64,000 nt of DNA from Dermabacter hominis NBRC 106157 (GTDB taxonomy: Bacteria > Actinomycetota > Actinomycetes > Actinomycetales > Dermabacteraceae), in NCBI RefSeq assembly GCF_001570785.1, contig NZ_BCSI01000001.1, positions 124,001 through 188,000 on the forward strand, in the 5' to 3' direction. A model generated the notes under the pieces. It made no database searches and was not told the origin of the DNA. It worked only from the letters and a program-made list of their open reading frames with translations. The stretch's first letter is position 1. Each line of letters starts with the position of its first letter. This document shows, piece after piece, positions 23,494 to 40,707 of this stretch. The translations under genes were made by a program, and so were the position numbers.

Positions 23494-23527
23494 AAGCCCA
23501 GGCCTTATGACCTGGGCTTTCGTTGTG
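23494..23527 (+). terminator. Intrinsic terminator between the sugar operon and the tRNA (bidirectional)
   Basis: A 9-bp stem (AAGCCCAGG 23494-23502 with CCTGGGCTT 23511-23519) followed on plus by TCGTTGT. It lies just past the 3' end of the minus-strand tRNA, so it could terminate both. Confidence 0.75.
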
Positions 23528-23598
23528 CCCCCGAGACGATTCGAACGTCCGACACCCGCTTTAGGAGAGCGGTGCTCTATCCCCTGAGCTACGAGGGC
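23526..23598 (-). tRNA. tRNA-Arg (anticodon CCT)
   Basis: Reading the minus strand, a 7-bp acceptor stem (GCCCTCG with CGGGGGC, one G-T pair) closes a 73-base cloverleaf. The D arm is AGCTCAGGGGATAGAGC, the anticodon loop CTCCTAA gives anticodon CCT, and the T arm is GTTCGAATC-like. No CCA is encoded. It reads the AGG codon, rare in this high-GC genome. Confidence 0.93.
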
Positions 23599-29237: not shown

Positions 29238-29419
29238 GTCAAGTCCTTTCCTAGAGTCTCAACTGCGTGAGCCTCCCGTGTGGAAGCTACGACGAAAACG
29301 CTAGGGAACAAACCTGGAGGGTTCGTGAACGTCGTCAGAGAAGAGTGCGCGAGGGTAAAAATGCGGTAAGGAGCGGCGCGCCACATGCCCGCCTCAGCGG
29401 CTCAGGGGCTCGGCTCGGA

Positions 29420-29431: not shown

Positions 29432-32400
29432 GTGAGTTGGTTTGGACGTTCAAAACGCGCGAAATCTCAGGGCAGTAAGAAGGCCGAGGATGACGCGCTG
29501 ACTTCACGCGCGCGCGAAAGTCACGCGTGGGTGGGGCGATCGGCGAGCGCCGAGGGCGCCCGGGATGCTAGCGAGACCGAAAACGCAAAAAATGACGGCG
29601 GCTCGCATGCGGCCGAGGAGCACACGCTCGAGATTCGTGACCCGCATGAGACGCGCGAAGAGATGCACGAGTACACCGAAAGCAGTGTCGAGGATACCGG
29701 CGCGCACGTGTTCACCCCCGCGGCGTTCGACGACGATGATGACGTCACCGACCTGCAGGGTGCCCTCTCGCGCGTGCTCGTGACGGAAGCCAGCCGCGAG
29801 GAGCGGATCGAGGAATCGCTCGCGACGTGGCGCACGGCTCTCGCGTCACTCGCCGGCGACCAAGACTTCCTCACGGACATGCGCTCGGGTGCGTTTCTCG
29901 ACCTCACGAACTCGCATCCGCAGGGGCTCGCCCACCTATTCGCGAGCCGCGGCTCCACACGACTCTCCTCGCTCGTGCGCGAGGAAGCTTCCCTCGAGCG
30001 TGCGCGCGAAGCCGCGTTCCAGATCCGCGAGAGTGCCCTCGCCCACGCCGAAAACCGCGGTCTCACGACGTGCCATCTCGCGATCGGTGAGGCAACGTGG
30101 GTGGATCTTTCGGGCGAGCAGGTGCACGCGCCGCTCCTTTTGCGTCCGCTCAATTTGCACGTGCGTGGCGGCGCCCGCGAGGGCATCGACATTGACCTTG
30201 ACGCCGCTGTCGACCTCAACCCCCTCGTGCTGAGGGCCCTTCGCGACGAAGGCGTCCTCATCGACGCCCGCGCGCTACTCGAACTTACCGACTCTCACCA
30301 CGGTTTCGATCCGCAGCCGGTCCTCGACGCGTTCCGCTCACTCGGGGAACCGCTTCCCGGTTTCCGCATCTCTCACGCTCTTGTCGTTGGCAACCTCGTG
30401 GATACCTCGGGCCCCATGCTCGAAGACTTCGATGTTCCGGCCGAGGACCTCGCGGACCTGCCGATCATCGGCGCGCTCGCGGGTGACGAAGAATCGCGCG
30501 ATGAACTCGCAGTTGAGCCTTCTTCAGAAGAGGAGGTGCCCGAGTCGGTCGCGAGCGCCGATGCCGATGCGCGCCTCATTGCCGAGAACCTCCAGGGGCG
30601 CCCCGCGCTCGTGGTTCACGGCGCGCCAGGTCGCCCTCTCGCGCCCACCGTCGTGGCGTTCGCGGCTGAACAGATCGCCGCCGGCAAACGCGTGCTTCTC
30701 GTGTCTCAAAGCTCGAGTCGACTCGCCGAGCTTCAGTCAGAGATCGAGGCCGCGGGCCTCGAGGACATCCTCCTCAGCCTCGTCCCCGACCCGCATCTTC
30801 AGCGCGAGGCGAGCCGCTCGATGCTGCTCTCGCTCGCGAAAGCAAGCTCGTTCGTGCCGCCCGTCAGTCTCGCTGAGCCCGAAGGGCTGGCAGAGGCGCG
30901 CGACGTGCTCACGGGGCACGTGGAGGCGATGCACCGCGTGCAGGAACCGTGGGGTGTGAGCGCCCACGAAGCGATCAATGAACTGGCCGATCTTGCACGC
31001 CGCCGCCCCGCGCCGCGCACGGGCGTGCGACTGACGTCGAACGTCGCCGTGGCGATCCTCAAGGATCGCGAACGGTACGAGCGGCTCATGCGCGAGGCAG
31101 TCGAATCGGGCGCGCTCGGCATGGTTCCCGAGGACACCCCGTGGTACGGGGCCTCGATCACGAGTGAGCACCAGGCCAAGCGTGCACTCGAACTCGTGAC
31201 CGAGCTCGATGAGGCCTCACTTCCGCAGCTCATAGAGTACGCCGAGGCTCTCGGCGCGCCGTGCAACCTTGAAAAAGCCCGCAGCTTCGCGGAGCTTCGG
31301 CACACGGTGCGCGTTCTCGATGCCATGCGCTCCCTCTTCCGCCACGTGCGCCCGGAGCTTTTCAACGAGAAAATCGACATGCTTCTCGCAGCGGTTTCCG
31401 ACAAAACCTACCGCGAGGAACACGGGGCGGTCATGGGCTTTGGCGAGCGTCGCCGCTGGAAGAAGCTCGCAAAATCGATGCTGCAACCGTCGGAAAACAC
31501 GGAGAACTTGCGCGCGCACCTCCTGGCCGCTCAGGACATCCACCGCCAGTGGGAAGCGATCGCGACCGACGCGGGCCTCACCCCGGTTGTGCCGAAGACG
31601 CTCGGTGAAGTTGAGGCGCTCGTGGGTAGCACGCAAAAGAGCCTCGATGAACTGCAGGTTCTTCTCGCGGGCACCGAGCAGGGCACCGATTTCGACAACA
31701 CCGAACTTGGCGCGCTTCACGAACGCATGAAAGAGCTCCACGCGCGAAGTGAGGTGCTCGATGTTCTCCCTCGCCGCACGAAGGTCATGCGTGAGCTTGA
31801 ATTCGAGGGATTCGCGGCGCTCCTTCGCGATATTCGCGGCCCGGAAGTCACAAGTGACCTCGCCGTCGCCGAGCTCAACCTCGCGTGGTGGGTGAGCGTG
31901 CTCGAGTTCATCGCGCGGGCTGAACCGACCCTTTCGCAGTACGACGGCACGAAGCTTTCCCAGGTGGCCGAGCGCTATCGCCGCCTCGACGTGCACAATC
32001 TCAACGCCGGTCGCTTCCGGGTTCGCAAGCGCGTGGACGAGCTGCTCGTGGAAACCATGAAGCGTTTCCCGGAAACGTCGCGCAGCGCGATCATTGAGCT
32101 CAATACTCCGGGAACGATGAGCGTGCGCGACACCGCCGGGAAGTATCAGGACATCATGTTCCGTGCGCGGCCACTGTGGCTCGCTTCGCCGTTCATGGTG
32201 CCGCAAATGATTCCCGCCGGACGCCACTTCGATCTCGTCATTCTCGCCGATGCCGCGCGTCTTCCCACGGCCGCGGCGATCCCGGCACTGTCGCGAGCGC
32301 GCCAGGCTGTGATCGTCGGTGACCCGTTCGACTTCGTTGATGGCGACGATGTTCGCGCCCACCACTCGGGCATGGCCCGCCTCCTTGACGAAGCGAGTGA

Positions 32401-33922
32401 AGTCGCGCCGGTGCTGCGGCTCGTGCGCGACACGCATCCTGCGACCGGGGGCGTGCGACGCTTCGTCGAGAATCGCGCGAAGGCGCTCGATGCGGGATGG
32501 GGTGCGCTGCTCGCGCCGCCGAGCCCCGAGCACATCGACGAGGACACCTTCATCTACGTCCCGGATGGCAGGGGCCCCGTGCGCCAGGGCGCGGAATTTG
32601 TGGAGTCGACCGACGCCGAGCTTCGCCGCGTCACCGACCTCGTGATCTACCACGCGCGCCACAACCCCGAGCGCTCTCTCGCGGTCCTGACCCTCACACC
32701 CACGCATGCCAAGGCCGTCCAGGACTCGGTCATGCGGTCCGTGAGTCGCCTGCCCGATCTGCACGACTTCTTCAACCCCGAGCGCGAGGAATTCTTCACG
32801 GTCGTGCCCGCGCAGGCGGCAACAGCGATCGTGCGCGACGACGTCATCGTGTCACTCGGCTTCGGTCTCACCCCCCACGATCGCCTCTTGCATCGCTTCG
32901 GCCCGCTGTCGACGGACGCTGGCCGCAGGGCCCTCCTCACGGTTTTGACCCGTGCCCGCTTCCATACGAGCGTCGTAAGCGCCGTGCGCAGCAGCGATCT
33001 CGAGGTGGATAGGCTTCGCACGGAGGGTGCGCGTGACCTGCGGCTTTTGCTTGAATTCCTCGAGGCTGGATTCTCGCAAAGCGTGCTTGATCACGAGGAT
33101 GCGGCGGAGCTCGAGGAGCCGTCGGAACCTGCCGAGCAGAACGAGAGTGCCGACGCTAACCCCGCCGAAACCGAACCCTCGGAACCGGTCGACGCCGGCG
33201 AGGACACCGAGGGCGACGAGCCTGATGCCGAAGGCGAACCCGGAACTGCGGTCGAGGGCGAGGCTACCGACGATAATGCTCCTGAGCATCCCGCCGAACC
33301 GGACATCCCCGATAGCTCCGAAGCACTCGTCGCTGACCTCGCCGATCGTCTGTGGCGCGCCGGTTACACGGTCGAACTTGATTACGGCCTGTCAAGCGAA
33401 CGCGTCGAACTTGCGATCGCCCACCCTGAGCTTCCCGGGCGCTATCTCGTCGCCGTTGCGACAGACGGCCCGCGCTACCGCGAAATCACGGACCAGCGTG
33501 AACGCGACCGCTTGAGCGCAGAGCGTCTTGAAGCGGCGGGATGGACCGTTGAGCGCGTCTGGTCGTGGGCCCTGTTCATCGACCCCGAGGGTGAAGCAGA
33601 ACGCGTGATCAAGAGCGTCGAGCGCGCCTACCACGACTACCTCGAGCAGCAGGACATCAAGATCGGGCGGGGCGCTGCCCGCCATCGCTTGCCGAAGCCG
33701 AAGATCCCGGCCGGTCACCCGTTGAGCTTCTACGGACCGGACGACTTCGATCAGGTCGTCGCCTACATCTGCTCGGACGGTCAGGCTCGATTCTCCGAGC
33801 AACTTGCCACGGAGGTGCGCGAGTTTCTGGCGTTTACCGAGCGCAGCGTCCTGCTCGACGTGTCAGTTTCAGCCGCGATCCGTCGCTACCTCGCGAAACA
33901 AAGCGAGGGAGAGGCTCGGTGA
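29432..33922 (+). CDS. Large helicase/nuclease-like protein (DUF4011-type) with degenerate catalytic motifs
   Basis: 1496 residues from GTG 29432; a 55-codon upstream extension is unlike protein. Layout: charged N-terminus (1-110); DUF4011-like domain (~110-320, WRTALASLAGDQDFLTDMRS, PLLLRPLNLHVRGGA); SF1 helicase core (~390-1190); acidic Glu/Pro linker (~1218-1300); C-terminal Vsr/MTES_1575-type nuclease fold (~1310-1400, ELDYGLSSERVELAIAHP, RERDRLSAERLEAAGW, ERVWSW). The P-loop reads HGAPGRPLAPT (~399) without GK(S/T), Walker B reads VILADAARLP (~934) instead of DEAS, and the nuclease IExDG reads AVATDG (~1340). It is probably a non-catalytic scaffold or a diverged family; I infer no activity. 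A 59-codon gene overlaps its stop. Confidence 0.8.
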   Translation: MSWFGRSKRAKSQGSKKAEDDALTSRARESHAWVGRSASAEGARDASETENAKNDGGSHAAEEHTLEIRDPHETREEMHEYTESSVEDTGAHVFTPAAFDDDDDVTDLQGALSRVLVTEASREERIEESLATWRTALASLAGDQDFLTDMRSGAFLDLTNSHPQGLAHLFASRGSTRLSSLVREEASLERAREAAFQIRESALAHAENRGLTTCHLAIGEATWVDLSGEQVHAPLLLRPLNLHVRGGAREGIDIDLDAAVDLNPLVLRALRDEGVLIDARALLELTDSHHGFDPQPVLDAFRSLGEPLPGFRISHALVVGNLVDTSGPMLEDFDVPAEDLADLPIIGALAGDEESRDELAVEPSSEEEVPESVASADADARLIAENLQGRPALVVHGAPGRPLAPTVVAFAAEQIAAGKRVLLVSQSSSRLAELQSEIEAAGLEDILLSLVPDPHLQREASRSMLLSLAKASSFVPPVSLAEPEGLAEARDVLTGHVEAMHRVQEPWGVSAHEAINELADLARRRPAPRTGVRLTSNVAVAILKDRERYERLMREAVESGALGMVPEDTPWYGASITSEHQAKRALELVTELDEASLPQLIEYAEALGAPCNLEKARSFAELRHTVRVLDAMRSLFRHVRPELFNEKIDMLLAAVSDKTYREEHGAVMGFGERRRWKKLAKSMLQPSENTENLRAHLLAAQDIHRQWEAIATDAGLTPVVPKTLGEVEALVGSTQKSLDELQVLLAGTEQGTDFDNTELGALHERMKELHARSEVLDVLPRRTKVMRELEFEGFAALLRDIRGPEVTSDLAVAELNLAWWVSVLEFIARAEPTLSQYDGTKLSQVAERYRRLDVHNLNAGRFRVRKRVDELLVETMKRFPETSRSAIIELNTPGTMSVRDTAGKYQDIMFRARPLWLASPFMVPQMIPAGRHFDLVILADAARLPTAAAIPALSRARQAVIVGDPFDFVDGDDVRAHHSGMARLLDEASEVAPVLRLVRDTHPATGGVRRFVENRAKALDAGWGALLAPPSPEHIDEDTFIYVPDGRGPVRQGAEFVESTDAELRRVTDLVIYHARHNPERSLAVLTLTPTHAKAVQDSVMRSVSRLPDLHDFFNPEREEFFTVVPAQAATAIVRDDVIVSLGFGLTPHDRLLHRFGPLSTDAGRRALLTVLTRARFHTSVVSAVRSSDLEVDRLRTEGARDLRLLLEFLEAGFSQSVLDHEDAAELEEPSEPAEQNESADANPAETEPSEPVDAGEDTEGDEPDAEGEPGTAVEGEATDDNAPEHPAEPDIPDSSEALVADLADRLWRAGYTVELDYGLSSERVELAIAHPELPGRYLVAVATDGPRYREITDQRERDRLSAERLEAAGWTVERVWSWALFIDPEGEAERVIKSVERAYHDYLEQQDIKIGRGAARHRLPKPKIPAGHPLSFYGPDDFDQVVAYICSDGQARFSEQLATEVREFLAFTERSVLLDVSVSAAIRRYLAKQSEGEAR

Positions 33923-37234: not shown

Positions 37235-39013
37235 ATGGATGCACGTGCCGATTCCCCCCTTCTGTCGCCGCTCGCGCGACGCGCGCGCGAGGCGAGTCTC
37301 CCTTTTGACATCGCCGGCGCGGCTGAGGCGCGCGAAAAGGCAGGGCATATTGCGCAGCAGATTGAGGACCACCTGGCGCCGAGGCTCGCCTCTCTCGAGG
37401 CGCCGCTTCTCGCGGTGGTGGGCGGCTCGACCGGCTCCGGTAAGTCGACGCTCGTCAATGCCCTCGTGGGGGAGAACATTTCGCGCGCGGGGGCTTTGCG
37501 GCCGACGACGCGCCAACCGGTTCTCGTGCACAACCCCTCTGATGCGCAGTGGTTCGAAGGGGACCGAATCCTGCCCTCGCTTCCTCGCGTGCACATGAGT
37601 GCGTCAAGCCCCGAAGCGCGCGAACGCGGAGCTGGATTCGGCACGGCCCTTCACCTGGTCGAAAGCGAGCGCGTGCCCCAGGGGATCGCACTTTTGGACG
37701 CGCCCGATATCGATTCGGTCAGCCGCGAAAACCGCGAGCTCGCCGGCCAGCTACTGCGCGCGGCAGATCTCTGGATTTTCGTCACAACCGCGCACCGGTA
37801 CGCGGATGCGGTGCCGTGGCTCGCCCTCGCGCAAGCCGCGGAGCGCGAGGTGACCGTGGTCGTCATCATGAATCGCATCCCGCACAAGGACGGGGTTGCC
37901 GAAGATTTGACGTCGCACCTGGGGGCGATGCTCGCGGAGCGGGGCGTTATGACGGAGCGACTGCTTGCGATCCACGAGCAGGAGCTCGGCGAGGGGGAGA
38001 TCCTCGAAACGGATGAGGTGCGCGAGCTTTCGGCGTGGCTGGGGGCGCTCGCACGCGACAAGGAGGCGCGCAGCGCGATCGCGCGGCGCACCCTGCGCGG
38101 GGCGCTCGTGGCGACAGCGCAATCGCTCGACGAACTCGGCGAAGCGGTCGCCGCGCAGGAAGACGAACGGGATCGGCTTGCGGCGCTCGCGCGCGCCGAA
38201 TTCGATGCTGCGAAGGATTCGATCGCGAACCTTACTCGCGACGGTGCGCTGCTGCGCGGTGAAGTTCTCGCGCGCTGGCAGGACGTCGTTGGTACGGGTG
38301 AATTTTTCAAGGGCGTACAGGGGTGGGTGTCGCGCACGCGCGACCGCATCACCGCTGCTCTTACGGGACGCACGCGCCCGGTGGTCGCAGCTGAGAACGC
38401 GATTGAGACGGGCCTCGTGACCGTCGTCATCGACCAGGTCGCCAACGCTCGCTCGCGTACCGTGCGTGCGTGGAACTCGCATGCGGCAGGCGCGTCCCTG
38501 TTGCAATCGAGCCCCGGCCTTGCCGTCACGCTTATGCAGGTGCCCGAAGGCTTCCGCCGCACCGTTGAGGATCAGGTACGGGCGTGGCAAAAGGACGTCC
38601 TTGACCTCGTCGAATCAGAGGGTTCAGATCGCCGTACGCAGGCACGAGTGCTGTCCCTCGGCGTGAACGTCGTGGGCATCGCGCTCATGGTCGTGGTGTT
38701 CGCCTCCACCGCCTTCATGCCGACTGGCCTCGAGGTAGGCGCGGGAACGGCGACGGCGCTCGTGGGGCAGAAACTTCTTGAATCGATCTTTGGCGATGAG
38801 GCCGTGAGGCGGCTCGCGAAGAAAGCGCGCGGAATGCTCGATTCGCGCATCGGCAACGTCGTGGATACGCAAGCAACAGCCTTCGCCACGGCACTCGCTG
38901 CGCACCCCATCGTGACTGCATCGAGCGCGATTCACAGCGATGCCGAGACCGTGCGTCAACTCATCGAGAACCTGGGTGGCCCCTCCGCTGCTCCCCGAAG
39001 GGGTGGGCAATAG
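37235..39013 (+). CDS. Dynamin-like membrane-associated GTPase, first of a pair
   Basis: 592 residues. G1/P-loop VVGGSTGSGKSTLVNALVG (~62-80), a switch-I threonine region ALRPTTRQPVLV, G3-like LLDAPDIDSV, and G4-like VIMNRIPHKD. The long helical middle (~260-460, EAVAAQEDERDRLAALARAEF) may form a dynamin-type stalk. Two hydrophobic stretches near 480-520 (VVGIALMVVVFASTAFMPTG, VGAGTATALVGQKLLESIF) suggest membrane insertion. Leaderless start. The next gene encodes a second GTPase and overlaps by one base, a pairing known for bacterial dynamin-like proteins. The role is unknown; membrane remodelling or cell division is plausible. Confidence 0.82.
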   Translation: MDARADSPLLSPLARRAREASLPFDIAGAAEAREKAGHIAQQIEDHLAPRLASLEAPLLAVVGGSTGSGKSTLVNALVGENISRAGALRPTTRQPVLVHNPSDAQWFEGDRILPSLPRVHMSASSPEARERGAGFGTALHLVESERVPQGIALLDAPDIDSVSRENRELAGQLLRAADLWIFVTTAHRYADAVPWLALAQAAEREVTVVVIMNRIPHKDGVAEDLTSHLGAMLAERGVMTERLLAIHEQELGEGEILETDEVRELSAWLGALARDKEARSAIARRTLRGALVATAQSLDELGEAVAAQEDERDRLAALARAEFDAAKDSIANLTRDGALLRGEVLARWQDVVGTGEFFKGVQGWVSRTRDRITAALTGRTRPVVAAENAIETGLVTVVIDQVANARSRTVRAWNSHAAGASLLQSSPGLAVTLMQVPEGFRRTVEDQVRAWQKDVLDLVESEGSDRRTQARVLSLGVNVVGIALMVVVFASTAFMPTGLEVGAGTATALVGQKLLESIFGDEAVRRLAKKARGMLDSRIGNVVDTQATAFATALAAHPIVTASSAIHSDAETVRQLIENLGGPSAAPRRGGQ

Positions 39014-40707
39014 TGAGCACTCGATCCGTCACGAGGGCCCGCGGCCGTCTCGACGCTGCCGTGGAGGCCCTGAGCGGCGCGGTTGCGGAGGCGGAGCCGC
39101 TCCTCGACGATGCGACGCTCGAGGGCGCGCGTGCCGCGTGTGCGCGGCTCACGGAGCGTCTCGAACATTCGAGCGAGCACACCGTGATCGGGCTCTTCGG
39201 GGCAACGGGATCGGGGAAATCCTCGCTCGTGAATGCGATCGTCGGTGAGGACATCGCGCGCGTTGCGCACAGGCGCCCCACGACCTCGAAAGCTCTCGCG
39301 ATCCTCCCCGAGTCTGCGGATGAACACGTGGACGGCTCAGCGGCTTCACTCCTTGACTGGCTCGAGATTCGCGAGCGGCACACGGTGGGCCGCGGATCTC
39401 TCCCGCAGGGAGCCATCCTCGTGGACCTTCCCGACTTCGATTCTGTCGAGAGCGCTAATCGCGAGATTGCCGAGCGTCTCGCCGGCACTGTCGATGTGCT
39501 CGTCTGGGTCACGGATCCGGAAAAGTATGCGGACGCCGTGCTGCACACGGAGTTCATTAGCCGCTTTGCGCGCCACGATGCGGTCACGATCGTCGTCGTG
39601 AACCAGGCCGATCGCCTGACGAAGGCCGACGGTGCGGCGGTGCGCTCCTCGATGAAGGCACTGCTTGCCGAGGACGGTCTCGCGAAAACAGAGGTATGCC
39701 TCGTGAGTGCCGTCGATGGCACCGGGCTCCCTCACTTGCGAGCTCAGATCGCCACCGTTGTCGAGTCGAAGCGCGCTGTTCTCGAGCGTCTGCTCGCGGA
39801 CGCTCGCGCCGTGGGGGAGACCATCGCGCGTGCGACCGGGGTGACCGTTTCGCGTAAGTCCGTTGAAATTCCTCAGCTCACGCGAGAAGTACCAACCGTC
39901 GAGCTCGACCGACTCGAAGATGCCTGCGTAACCGCGGCCCAGGTGGACAAAATCTCTGAAGCAGTTGCGCAAAGCTACCGCACGCGCGCGGGTCGCCATA
40001 CCGGCTGGCCGGCGCTGCGGTGGATTGGCGCGTTTAAGGTTGACCCGCTCGAGCGCATGCGCGTCGGGCGGGGAAGTAACAAGCACCGCAAGGGAGATTC
40101 GGACGACGAATTCGTCGCACGATCCTCACTTTCGATCGATGCTCCCGGCGCACGCGCCCGGATGAATCGCGCGGTCGACGAATTCGCGCTGTCTCTTGCC
40201 GGTCAGGCACCGAATCCGTGGCCGGGTCGTCTCGCGGACGCTCTCGAAGAGGAGAAAGACGCCCTTCCCGACGAGGTCGACTATGCCCTCACCCATACAG
40301 ACTTTCGCGGCGCTGAAAAGTCGTGGACGTGGCTCCCGCTCAACATCGTGCAGTGGCTCTCGTTCCTAATGGCAATAGCGGGGCTCTTGTGGCTTCTCGC
40401 CCTTGCTGGCTTCGACTTCCTCCAAGTGCCGAAACCGCCCATGCCAATACTTGAGGGGCTGTGGGTTCCCGTGCCCGTACCGACGGCGATGATTATTGCG
40501 GGGCTTGGGCTCGGAATCGTGTTGGGTGCCCTTGCCGCGGTTCTTAATTCTTTCGTTGCGGCTTCCCGGAAGCGGCGGGCTCGCCGCGCGTTGCGGTCCT
40601 CGCTTCGTGACGCAGCAGAGCGCACAGTCGTTGCGCGTGCCCAGGGGGAGCTTGATCGGGCGGCGCGTCTTGAGGCTGCCCTTGTCACACTCGTGGCGTC
40701 GGCTTGA
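39013..40707 (+). CDS. Dynamin-like membrane-associated GTPase, second of a pair
   Basis: 564 residues from GTG 39013, overlapping the previous stop by one base. P-loop GLFGATGSGKSSLVNAIVG (~60-78), switch-I HRRPTTSKAL, G3 LVDLPDFDSV, G4 VVVNQADRLT, and a G5-like VCLVSAVDG. Two hydrophobic segments near the C-terminus (WLSFLMAIAGLLWLLALAGF, AMIIAGLGLGIVLGALAAVL) form a likely hairpin anchor. It has lower similarity to gene one than a recent duplicate would, so the two probably work as a heteromeric pair. Confidence 0.82.
   Translation: MSTRSVTRARGRLDAAVEALSGAVAEAEPLLDDATLEGARAACARLTERLEHSSEHTVIGLFGATGSGKSSLVNAIVGEDIARVAHRRPTTSKALAILPESADEHVDGSAASLLDWLEIRERHTVGRGSLPQGAILVDLPDFDSVESANREIAERLAGTVDVLVWVTDPEKYADAVLHTEFISRFARHDAVTIVVVNQADRLTKADGAAVRSSMKALLAEDGLAKTEVCLVSAVDGTGLPHLRAQIATVVESKRAVLERLLADARAVGETIARATGVTVSRKSVEIPQLTREVPTVELDRLEDACVTAAQVDKISEAVAQSYRTRAGRHTGWPALRWIGAFKVDPLERMRVGRGSNKHRKGDSDDEFVARSSLSIDAPGARARMNRAVDEFALSLAGQAPNPWPGRLADALEEEKDALPDEVDYALTHTDFRGAEKSWTWLPLNIVQWLSFLMAIAGLLWLLALAGFDFLQVPKPPMPILEGLWVPVPVPTAMIIAGLGLGIVLGALAAVLNSFVAASRKRRARRALRSSLRDAAERTVVARAQGELDRAARLEAALVTLVASA

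Follow-up and report, generated by a model that had tools for sequence, protein, structure and literature searches.

The window analysed here, a 64,000-nucleotide stretch of the Dermabacter hominis NBRC 106157 genome, carries a gene for a 1496-residue protein with the outline of a helicase joined to a nuclease, in which several catalytic motifs are altered. Our question was what so large a protein could do once its motor residues had gone, and whether its close relatives had lost them too.

A helicase-nuclease architecture in one long frame

The frame is uninterrupted. An alternative GTG upstream, at 29267, would add 55 residues; two near relatives, L003 and L031, likewise have their longest frame starting at the position equivalent to 29432. 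A search of the organism's own genome found a single copy. Reading from the N-terminus, a variable acidic tail precedes the DUF4011 region and the SF1 helicase body, and an acidic linker then leads to a Vsr-like nuclease of the MTES_1575 type and a C-terminal extension (Table 1). A 515-residue frame lies antisense within the gene (31217–32764, minus strand) and was regarded as a shadow frame such as high-GC coding sequence produces. The only RNA gene detected in the window is a tRNA-Arg (CCT) at 23525–23598 on the minus strand.

Table 1. Features of the gene and its product; motif readings give the window protein against intact orthologues.
Feature	Position	Strand	Basis
Giant pseudohelicase-nuclease gene P0001	29432..33922	+	open frame, 1496 aa; domain and genome searches
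N-terminal acidic, poorly conserved tail (res 1-118)	29432..29785	+	dN/dS 0.22-0.38 in genus; mean conservation 0.31 in family
DUF4011 region (res 119-380)	29786..30571	+	Pfam PF13195 res 182-255; dN/dS 0.03-0.05 in genus
Degenerate Walker A / motif I, GAPGRPLAPT vs GPPGTGKSQT (res 397-406; K403→L)	30620..30649	+	alignment
Degenerate motif Ia, VSQSSSRLAEL vs VAEKRAAIDAV (res 424-438)	30701..30745	+	alignment
Degenerate Walker B / motif II, VILADAARLP vs VIFDEASQIP (res 934-945)	32231..32266	+	alignment
Motif III, GDPFDF vs GDERQL, GD kept, QL lost (res 960-972)	32309..32347	+	alignment
Motif IV, RDTHP vs WHYRS (res 996-1014)	32417..32473	+	alignment
Motif V, ATAIVRD vs VQGDERD (res 1125-1140)	32804..32851	+	alignment
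Motif VI, LTRAR vs ITRAR, TRAR kept (res 1166-1178)	32927..32965	+	alignment
Acidic variable linker (res 1216-1296)	33077..33319	+	dN/dS 0.27-0.41 in genus
MTES_1575 Vsr-like nuclease, E1343→A, D1326→E, D1345 kept	33335..33613	+	Pfam PF18741 E 9e-19; alignment
C-terminal extension (res 1401-1496)	33632..33919	+	strongly conserved in family; mostly unaligned in intact clade; nuclease + extension dN/dS 0.02-0.03 in genus

Profile searches gave DUF4011 (PF13195) narrowly above its gathering cut-off (23.6 vs. 22.2 bits) and MTES_1575 (PF18741) at 67.8 vs. 38.2 bits, bearing out the kinship with DUF4011 proteins that a first-pass annotation had proposed. AAA_11 and AAA_12, for which that annotation had also suggested a search, do not match the protein in Pfam at E≤1; these models match 7 and 4 of 29 homologues, respectively. 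Profile A1, built from 29 homologues, matches parts of both lobes in the SMUBP-2, DNA2, UPF1/NAM7 and SEN1 structures, which supports descent from UPF1-like helicases. With homology in both lobes, and with orthologues that have all the motifs, the protein is an SF1 helicase by descent; by sequence comparison it is homologous to UPF1/SMUBP-2-like SF1 helicases and carries DUF4011 along with an MTES_1575 nuclease in its C-terminal part. The set that marks a catalytic SF1 helicase (Walker A GK[ST], Walker B DE and motifs III–V) is not found in it.

The catalytic motifs are degenerate

Thirteen intact orthologues served as the motif reference. The alignment confirms the P-loop without a lysine and the altered Walker B that had been noticed earlier: the first is seen where the intact orthologues read GPPGTGKSQT, and at the second, residues 937–942 read ILADAA against FDEAS, with D939 replaced by A and E940 by D (the motif II stretch is DLVILADAARLP in the window protein and DVVIFDEASQIP in the intact orthologues). 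The altered motifs Ia, III, IV and V had been overlooked. An intact lysine and DE pair elsewhere in the protein was looked for as well: GK[ST] occurs nowhere in the 1496 residues, and the two DEAS strings (593–596 and 986–989) neither align to Walker B nor belong to the family consensus. Of the MTES_1575 catalytic acidic set (D ... ExD), the protein has E1326 and A1343 at the first two positions and retains D1345, reading VAVATDG against VAVESDG in the intact orthologues. The alignment demonstrates the loss of the residues for ATP binding and hydrolysis.

Intact and dead orthologues

A first full table, of 115 rows, shows the P-loop lysine in 11 of 12 intact-group rows and in all four long paralogues, and in none of the 99 rows of the dead clade, where the site holds any of a dozen other residues (S, V, A, R, T, G, P, L and Q among them). 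The 115-row tree and table drop a duplicate (G002x) and four fragments (G216, G050, G184 and G048), whose P-loops all lack K. With five more genera of family f17 added, and with the four fragments included in the count, the lysine is found in only 14 of 120 aligned orthologues; the altered P-loop is no peculiarity of the window protein. Within f17, genera g22, g38, g55, g61, g64 and g79 read GK[ST], and genera g31, g45, g73 and g86 read GTGV, GVDA, GTGA and GTGA at the same site. The Walker B E, the motif V Q and the motif III Q are also mostly lost in the dead clade, which keeps the motif III D (95/99), a motif VI arginine (92/99) and D1345 (97/99). Outside the order, family f38 (L106, L107, L110–L114) has the gene near mscL with the P-loop K replaced by R, the same exchange as in Deinococcus PriA according to the accessible part of PMC4504706.

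Could nucleotide still be used through an unconventional site, the motor being altered rather than dead? The TRAR of motif VI, the GD of motif III and the acidic residue at 940 are kept, as such a site might require. But the window protein retains neither the lysine nor the serine/threonine nor the last glycine of GxGK[ST], the replacements of the lysine across the dead clade are diverse, and a single K to R exchange abolishes the ATPase of E. coli PriA (accessible part of PMC4504706). We consider an altered motor very improbable.

Among the sites invariant in the 13 intact sequences, 29 of 44 inside the motif windows have been lost by a majority of dead rows, vs. 23 of 126 elsewhere. These windows correspond to the established motifs of SF1 helicases but were drawn up once the lost sites had been inspected. 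Positions conserved in 90% or more of dead rows are spread throughout the helicase and nuclease parts, and a basic or aromatic residue occupies many of them (R533, R661, R673, R804, W571, W707, H1092). This pattern argues against a scaffold or regulatory protein that has nothing to do with nucleic acid, a reading to which we give little credence even though the acidic tail and linker would suit it and nucleic-acid binding by the protein is itself putative.

The nuclease glutamate had likewise been reported missing. A1343 upholds this for the window protein, and the wider alignment narrows it: among 35 aligned rows of the window's family the site is A in 4, D in 25 and E in 4, two rows being unreadable owing to broken frames, and A is found in all four rows of the window's genus, to which, as aligned, this loss is limited within the family. 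The first acidic position is E or D in 33 of the 35. The nuclease might then be the working part, guided in most relatives by an ATP-independent helicase-like module and present in the window's genus in a modified or inactive version. The D or E kept at the glutamate site in 29 of 35 family rows would fit this, as would the strong constraint on the nuclease and C-terminus, the most constrained part of the gene in the genus (dN/dS 0.02). We nevertheless think it unlikely, given the alanine throughout the window's genus and, in the dead clade, P at the first acidic site in 35 of 99 rows and L at the glutamate site in 25 of 99; with such residues across large parts of the clade, cutting is not the shared function. 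Cutting is probably gone in the window's genus, and it may persist in other genera of the family, where D or E remains. In L008 (G010) and L023 (G028) the frame is broken before the nuclease, which lies in another frame, through either sequencing error or a true split.

The dead protein is under purifying selection

Decay would require a dN/dS near 1. Nei-Gojobori values for the window gene against congener G001, which are rough because dS is about 0.9, are 0.075 overall, 0.040 for DUF4011, 0.043 for the helicase body and 0.022 for the nuclease plus C-terminus, so that the folded domains of the dead protein fall between 0.02 and 0.05; the tail and linker give 0.27–0.38. Five neighbouring genes have values of 0.05–0.12, and two more neighbours gave no hit. 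Purifying selection acts on the dead core much as it does on the genes around it, in agreement with the selection that had been read earlier from the long intact frame.

A core gene at a fixed locus

A match at E≤1e-10 was found in 58 of 58 genomes (relatives and the own genome). In an order-wide sample 242 of 248 genomes match at E≤1e-20, including 231 of 233 good ones, and in a class-wide sample 33 of 197 match, namely 16 of the same order, 15 of family f38 and two more; these are match counts, not fractions of the order or of f38, and since they do not separate orthologues from paralogues, some may be paralogues. The gene is kept in genomes as small as 0.8, 0.9 and 1.1 Mb, a hint of essentiality. 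In L092 (G085), L094 (G203) and L087 (G225), from genomes of 0.8–1.1 Mb, a dead orthologue of 1200–1255 residues adjoins mscL. Bifidobacteriaceae are, we presume, one family of the order. The main text of a Bifidobacterium breve essential-gene paper (PMC5514069), in its accessible part, makes no mention of the helicase, mscL or DUF4011.

Outside the window's family, mscL adjoins the gene in 13 of 14 loci with the lysine and in 44 of 70 without it; in 13 of the 27 loci with no mscL match, the downstream sequence covered extends for no more than about 1 kb. Where mscL adjoins, it is downstream and convergent in 55 of 57 loci, with a median gap of 312 bases. Intact and dead forms thus share the locus and are positional orthologues, the dead form not being a separately acquired paralogue. 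The window's family has the gene at another site, beside proC, and mscL was not seen in seven of its loci, 20 kb each. Downstream of the window gene lie proC, trkA, trkH and then two dynamin-like genes, an order largely common to the family. The latter two are adjacent GTPase genes (Pfam Dynamin_N; 37235–40704, plus strand), and most of the family loci compared have the pair, likewise ordered, next to trkA/trkH.

Across the order as a whole this is a core gene, usually found at a single locus and not in a defence island, a correction to the first-pass annotation. An old anti-phage gene of the PDC-S37, Hhe or ProA kind, now decaying or retained as a passive phage sensor, would explain the library matches: the PADLOC PDC-S37 profile matches the protein at E 6e-101 (a match without a stated cut-off) and 29 of 29 members scanned, the Hhe profile matches 27 of the 29, and the NCBIfam ProA and Hhe models match as well. 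Their scores are, however, far under the equivalog cut-offs (ProA, NF058533, 306.7 vs. 1500 bits; Hhe, NF042953, 159.2 vs. 2000 bits), the neighbours are proC, trkA, trkH and the dynamin pair, or mscL elsewhere, and near-universal presence under purifying selection is unlike mobile defence genes or pseudogenes. We judge this origin improbable.

The motor was probably lost more than once

A gene tree of 38 rows was computed under a mixture model with the motif columns removed, the rows having been picked from about 120 after a first tree. Dead f17 rows appear in two places among intact rows, inside starred branches, and labelling the rows as K or not K gives five changes. The AU test rejects both a single dead clade (p-AU 0.0157) and a grouping of the four dead f17 rows (p-AU 0.0226), p-values that do not apply to groups named beforehand, since the groups were picked after the first tree. 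An rpoB tree, in which two rogue rows (G060 and G240, probably in the wrong frame) were left in and ignored and several deep branches have low support, likewise interleaves intact and dead forms within f17. Branches are longer in the dead clade than in the intact one, indicating faster evolution. The best reading of these trees is that the ATPase was discarded repeatedly while the protein body stayed. We infer loss rather than regain because an intact motor is not easily rebuilt; in f5 and f17, an intact gene from elsewhere may instead have replaced a dead gene in place.

A binding platform as the proposed function

Near-universal retention despite the lost motor residues suggests a binding platform rather than an engine. 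This fits the structural or nucleic-acid-binding relative of DUF4011 proteins that the first-pass annotation had suggested. Upon the demonstrated homology, motif loss, retention, selection, fixed locus and repeated loss we place a reading by analogy, which we hold to be somewhat more probable than its negation: the protein would be a core-genome pseudohelicase, an ATP-free nucleic-acid-binding platform in service of another protein, with a dispensable motor in its intact relatives. Together with the helical insert and the DUF4011 region, the two RecA-like lobes would stay folded as a clamp, which would bind single-stranded or branched nucleic acid without ATP and present it to a second protein, the part played by RecC in RecBCD and by Deinococcus PriA for DnaB. 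In the window's genus the nuclease domain, too, would be a binding or docking module only, and intact relatives in some genera would do the same job with a motor added.

Structure prediction gave low confidence (two sequences each; pLDDT 33 for residues 110–1230 and 43 for residues 1290–1496), so the case for a kept fold comes from sequence; the nuclease prediction has an alpha-beta-beta-beta-alpha-beta order, too uncertain at that pLDDT to count. Searching the own genome at E≤1 revealed no homologous active subunit or paralogue; a homologous pair of the RecBC kind is therefore unavailable, and the partner would be of another kind. RecC itself (TIGR01450) has no match in the own genome. RecC co-occurrence was also considered and set aside: RecC scores above the cut-off in 9 of 35 genomes, intact and dead alike, and there is thus no link.

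More tentatively, with odds we put a little below even, the order may possess one machine that dropped ATP hydrolysis several times independently at one locus while its 1200–1700-residue body was kept. The selected, possibly essential function of the DUF4011 lineage would then be binding, never unwinding or cutting, and many "defence helicase" calls in the order would be a housekeeping pseudohelicase.

Comparison with known systems

The protein is best read as a pseudohelicase derived from a DUF4011 helicase-nuclease, unusual in its size, its near-universal presence in an order and its repeated loss of the motor. Intact, half-eroded and dead forms of a single large helicase-nuclease share a locus within one bacterial order, a natural series in which a non-motor role of such proteins is directly testable. 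The series also carries a warning: domain or PADLOC matches, such as those of PDC-S37 to every member scanned, can flag a catalytically dead core gene as a defence system. Literature searches on DUF4011, MTES_1575, Hhe, ProA, PDC-S37, UPF1-like inactive bacterial helicases, actinobacterial PriA and pseudohelicases listed no paper whose title or abstract describes this lineage, and PMC3710099, in its accessible part, describes only a distant MTES_1575 protein. A core DUF4011 gene flanking cDHS1 in Pseudomonas aeruginosa is likewise large and present in every isolate (accessible part of PMC10250203), but it belongs to another phylum and locus, and the likeness concerns gene size and presence.

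Hhe, ProA and PDC-S37 are the best library matches and have the same order of DUF4011, SF1 helicase and MTES_1575. Compared with Hhe and ProA, the window protein has a dead motor and far lower scores than their cut-offs demand, and it sits at a core locus instead of in a defence island. UPF1, SMUBP-2 (IGHMBP2) and DNA2 are matched by profile A1 in both lobes, and they differ in the Walker A lysine, the Walker B DE and motifs III–V, which are altered in the window protein. RecC of RecBCD is a large dead helicase with a dead nuclease fold that binds DNA, and it belongs to another SF1 subfamily. PriA belongs to another helicase superfamily. According to the accessible part of PMC4504706, Deinococcus radiodurans PriA is a bacterial helicase that has lost its Walker residues lineage-wide and binds DNA without ATPase activity, as we propose for the window protein, with the difference that its partner, DnaB, is known.
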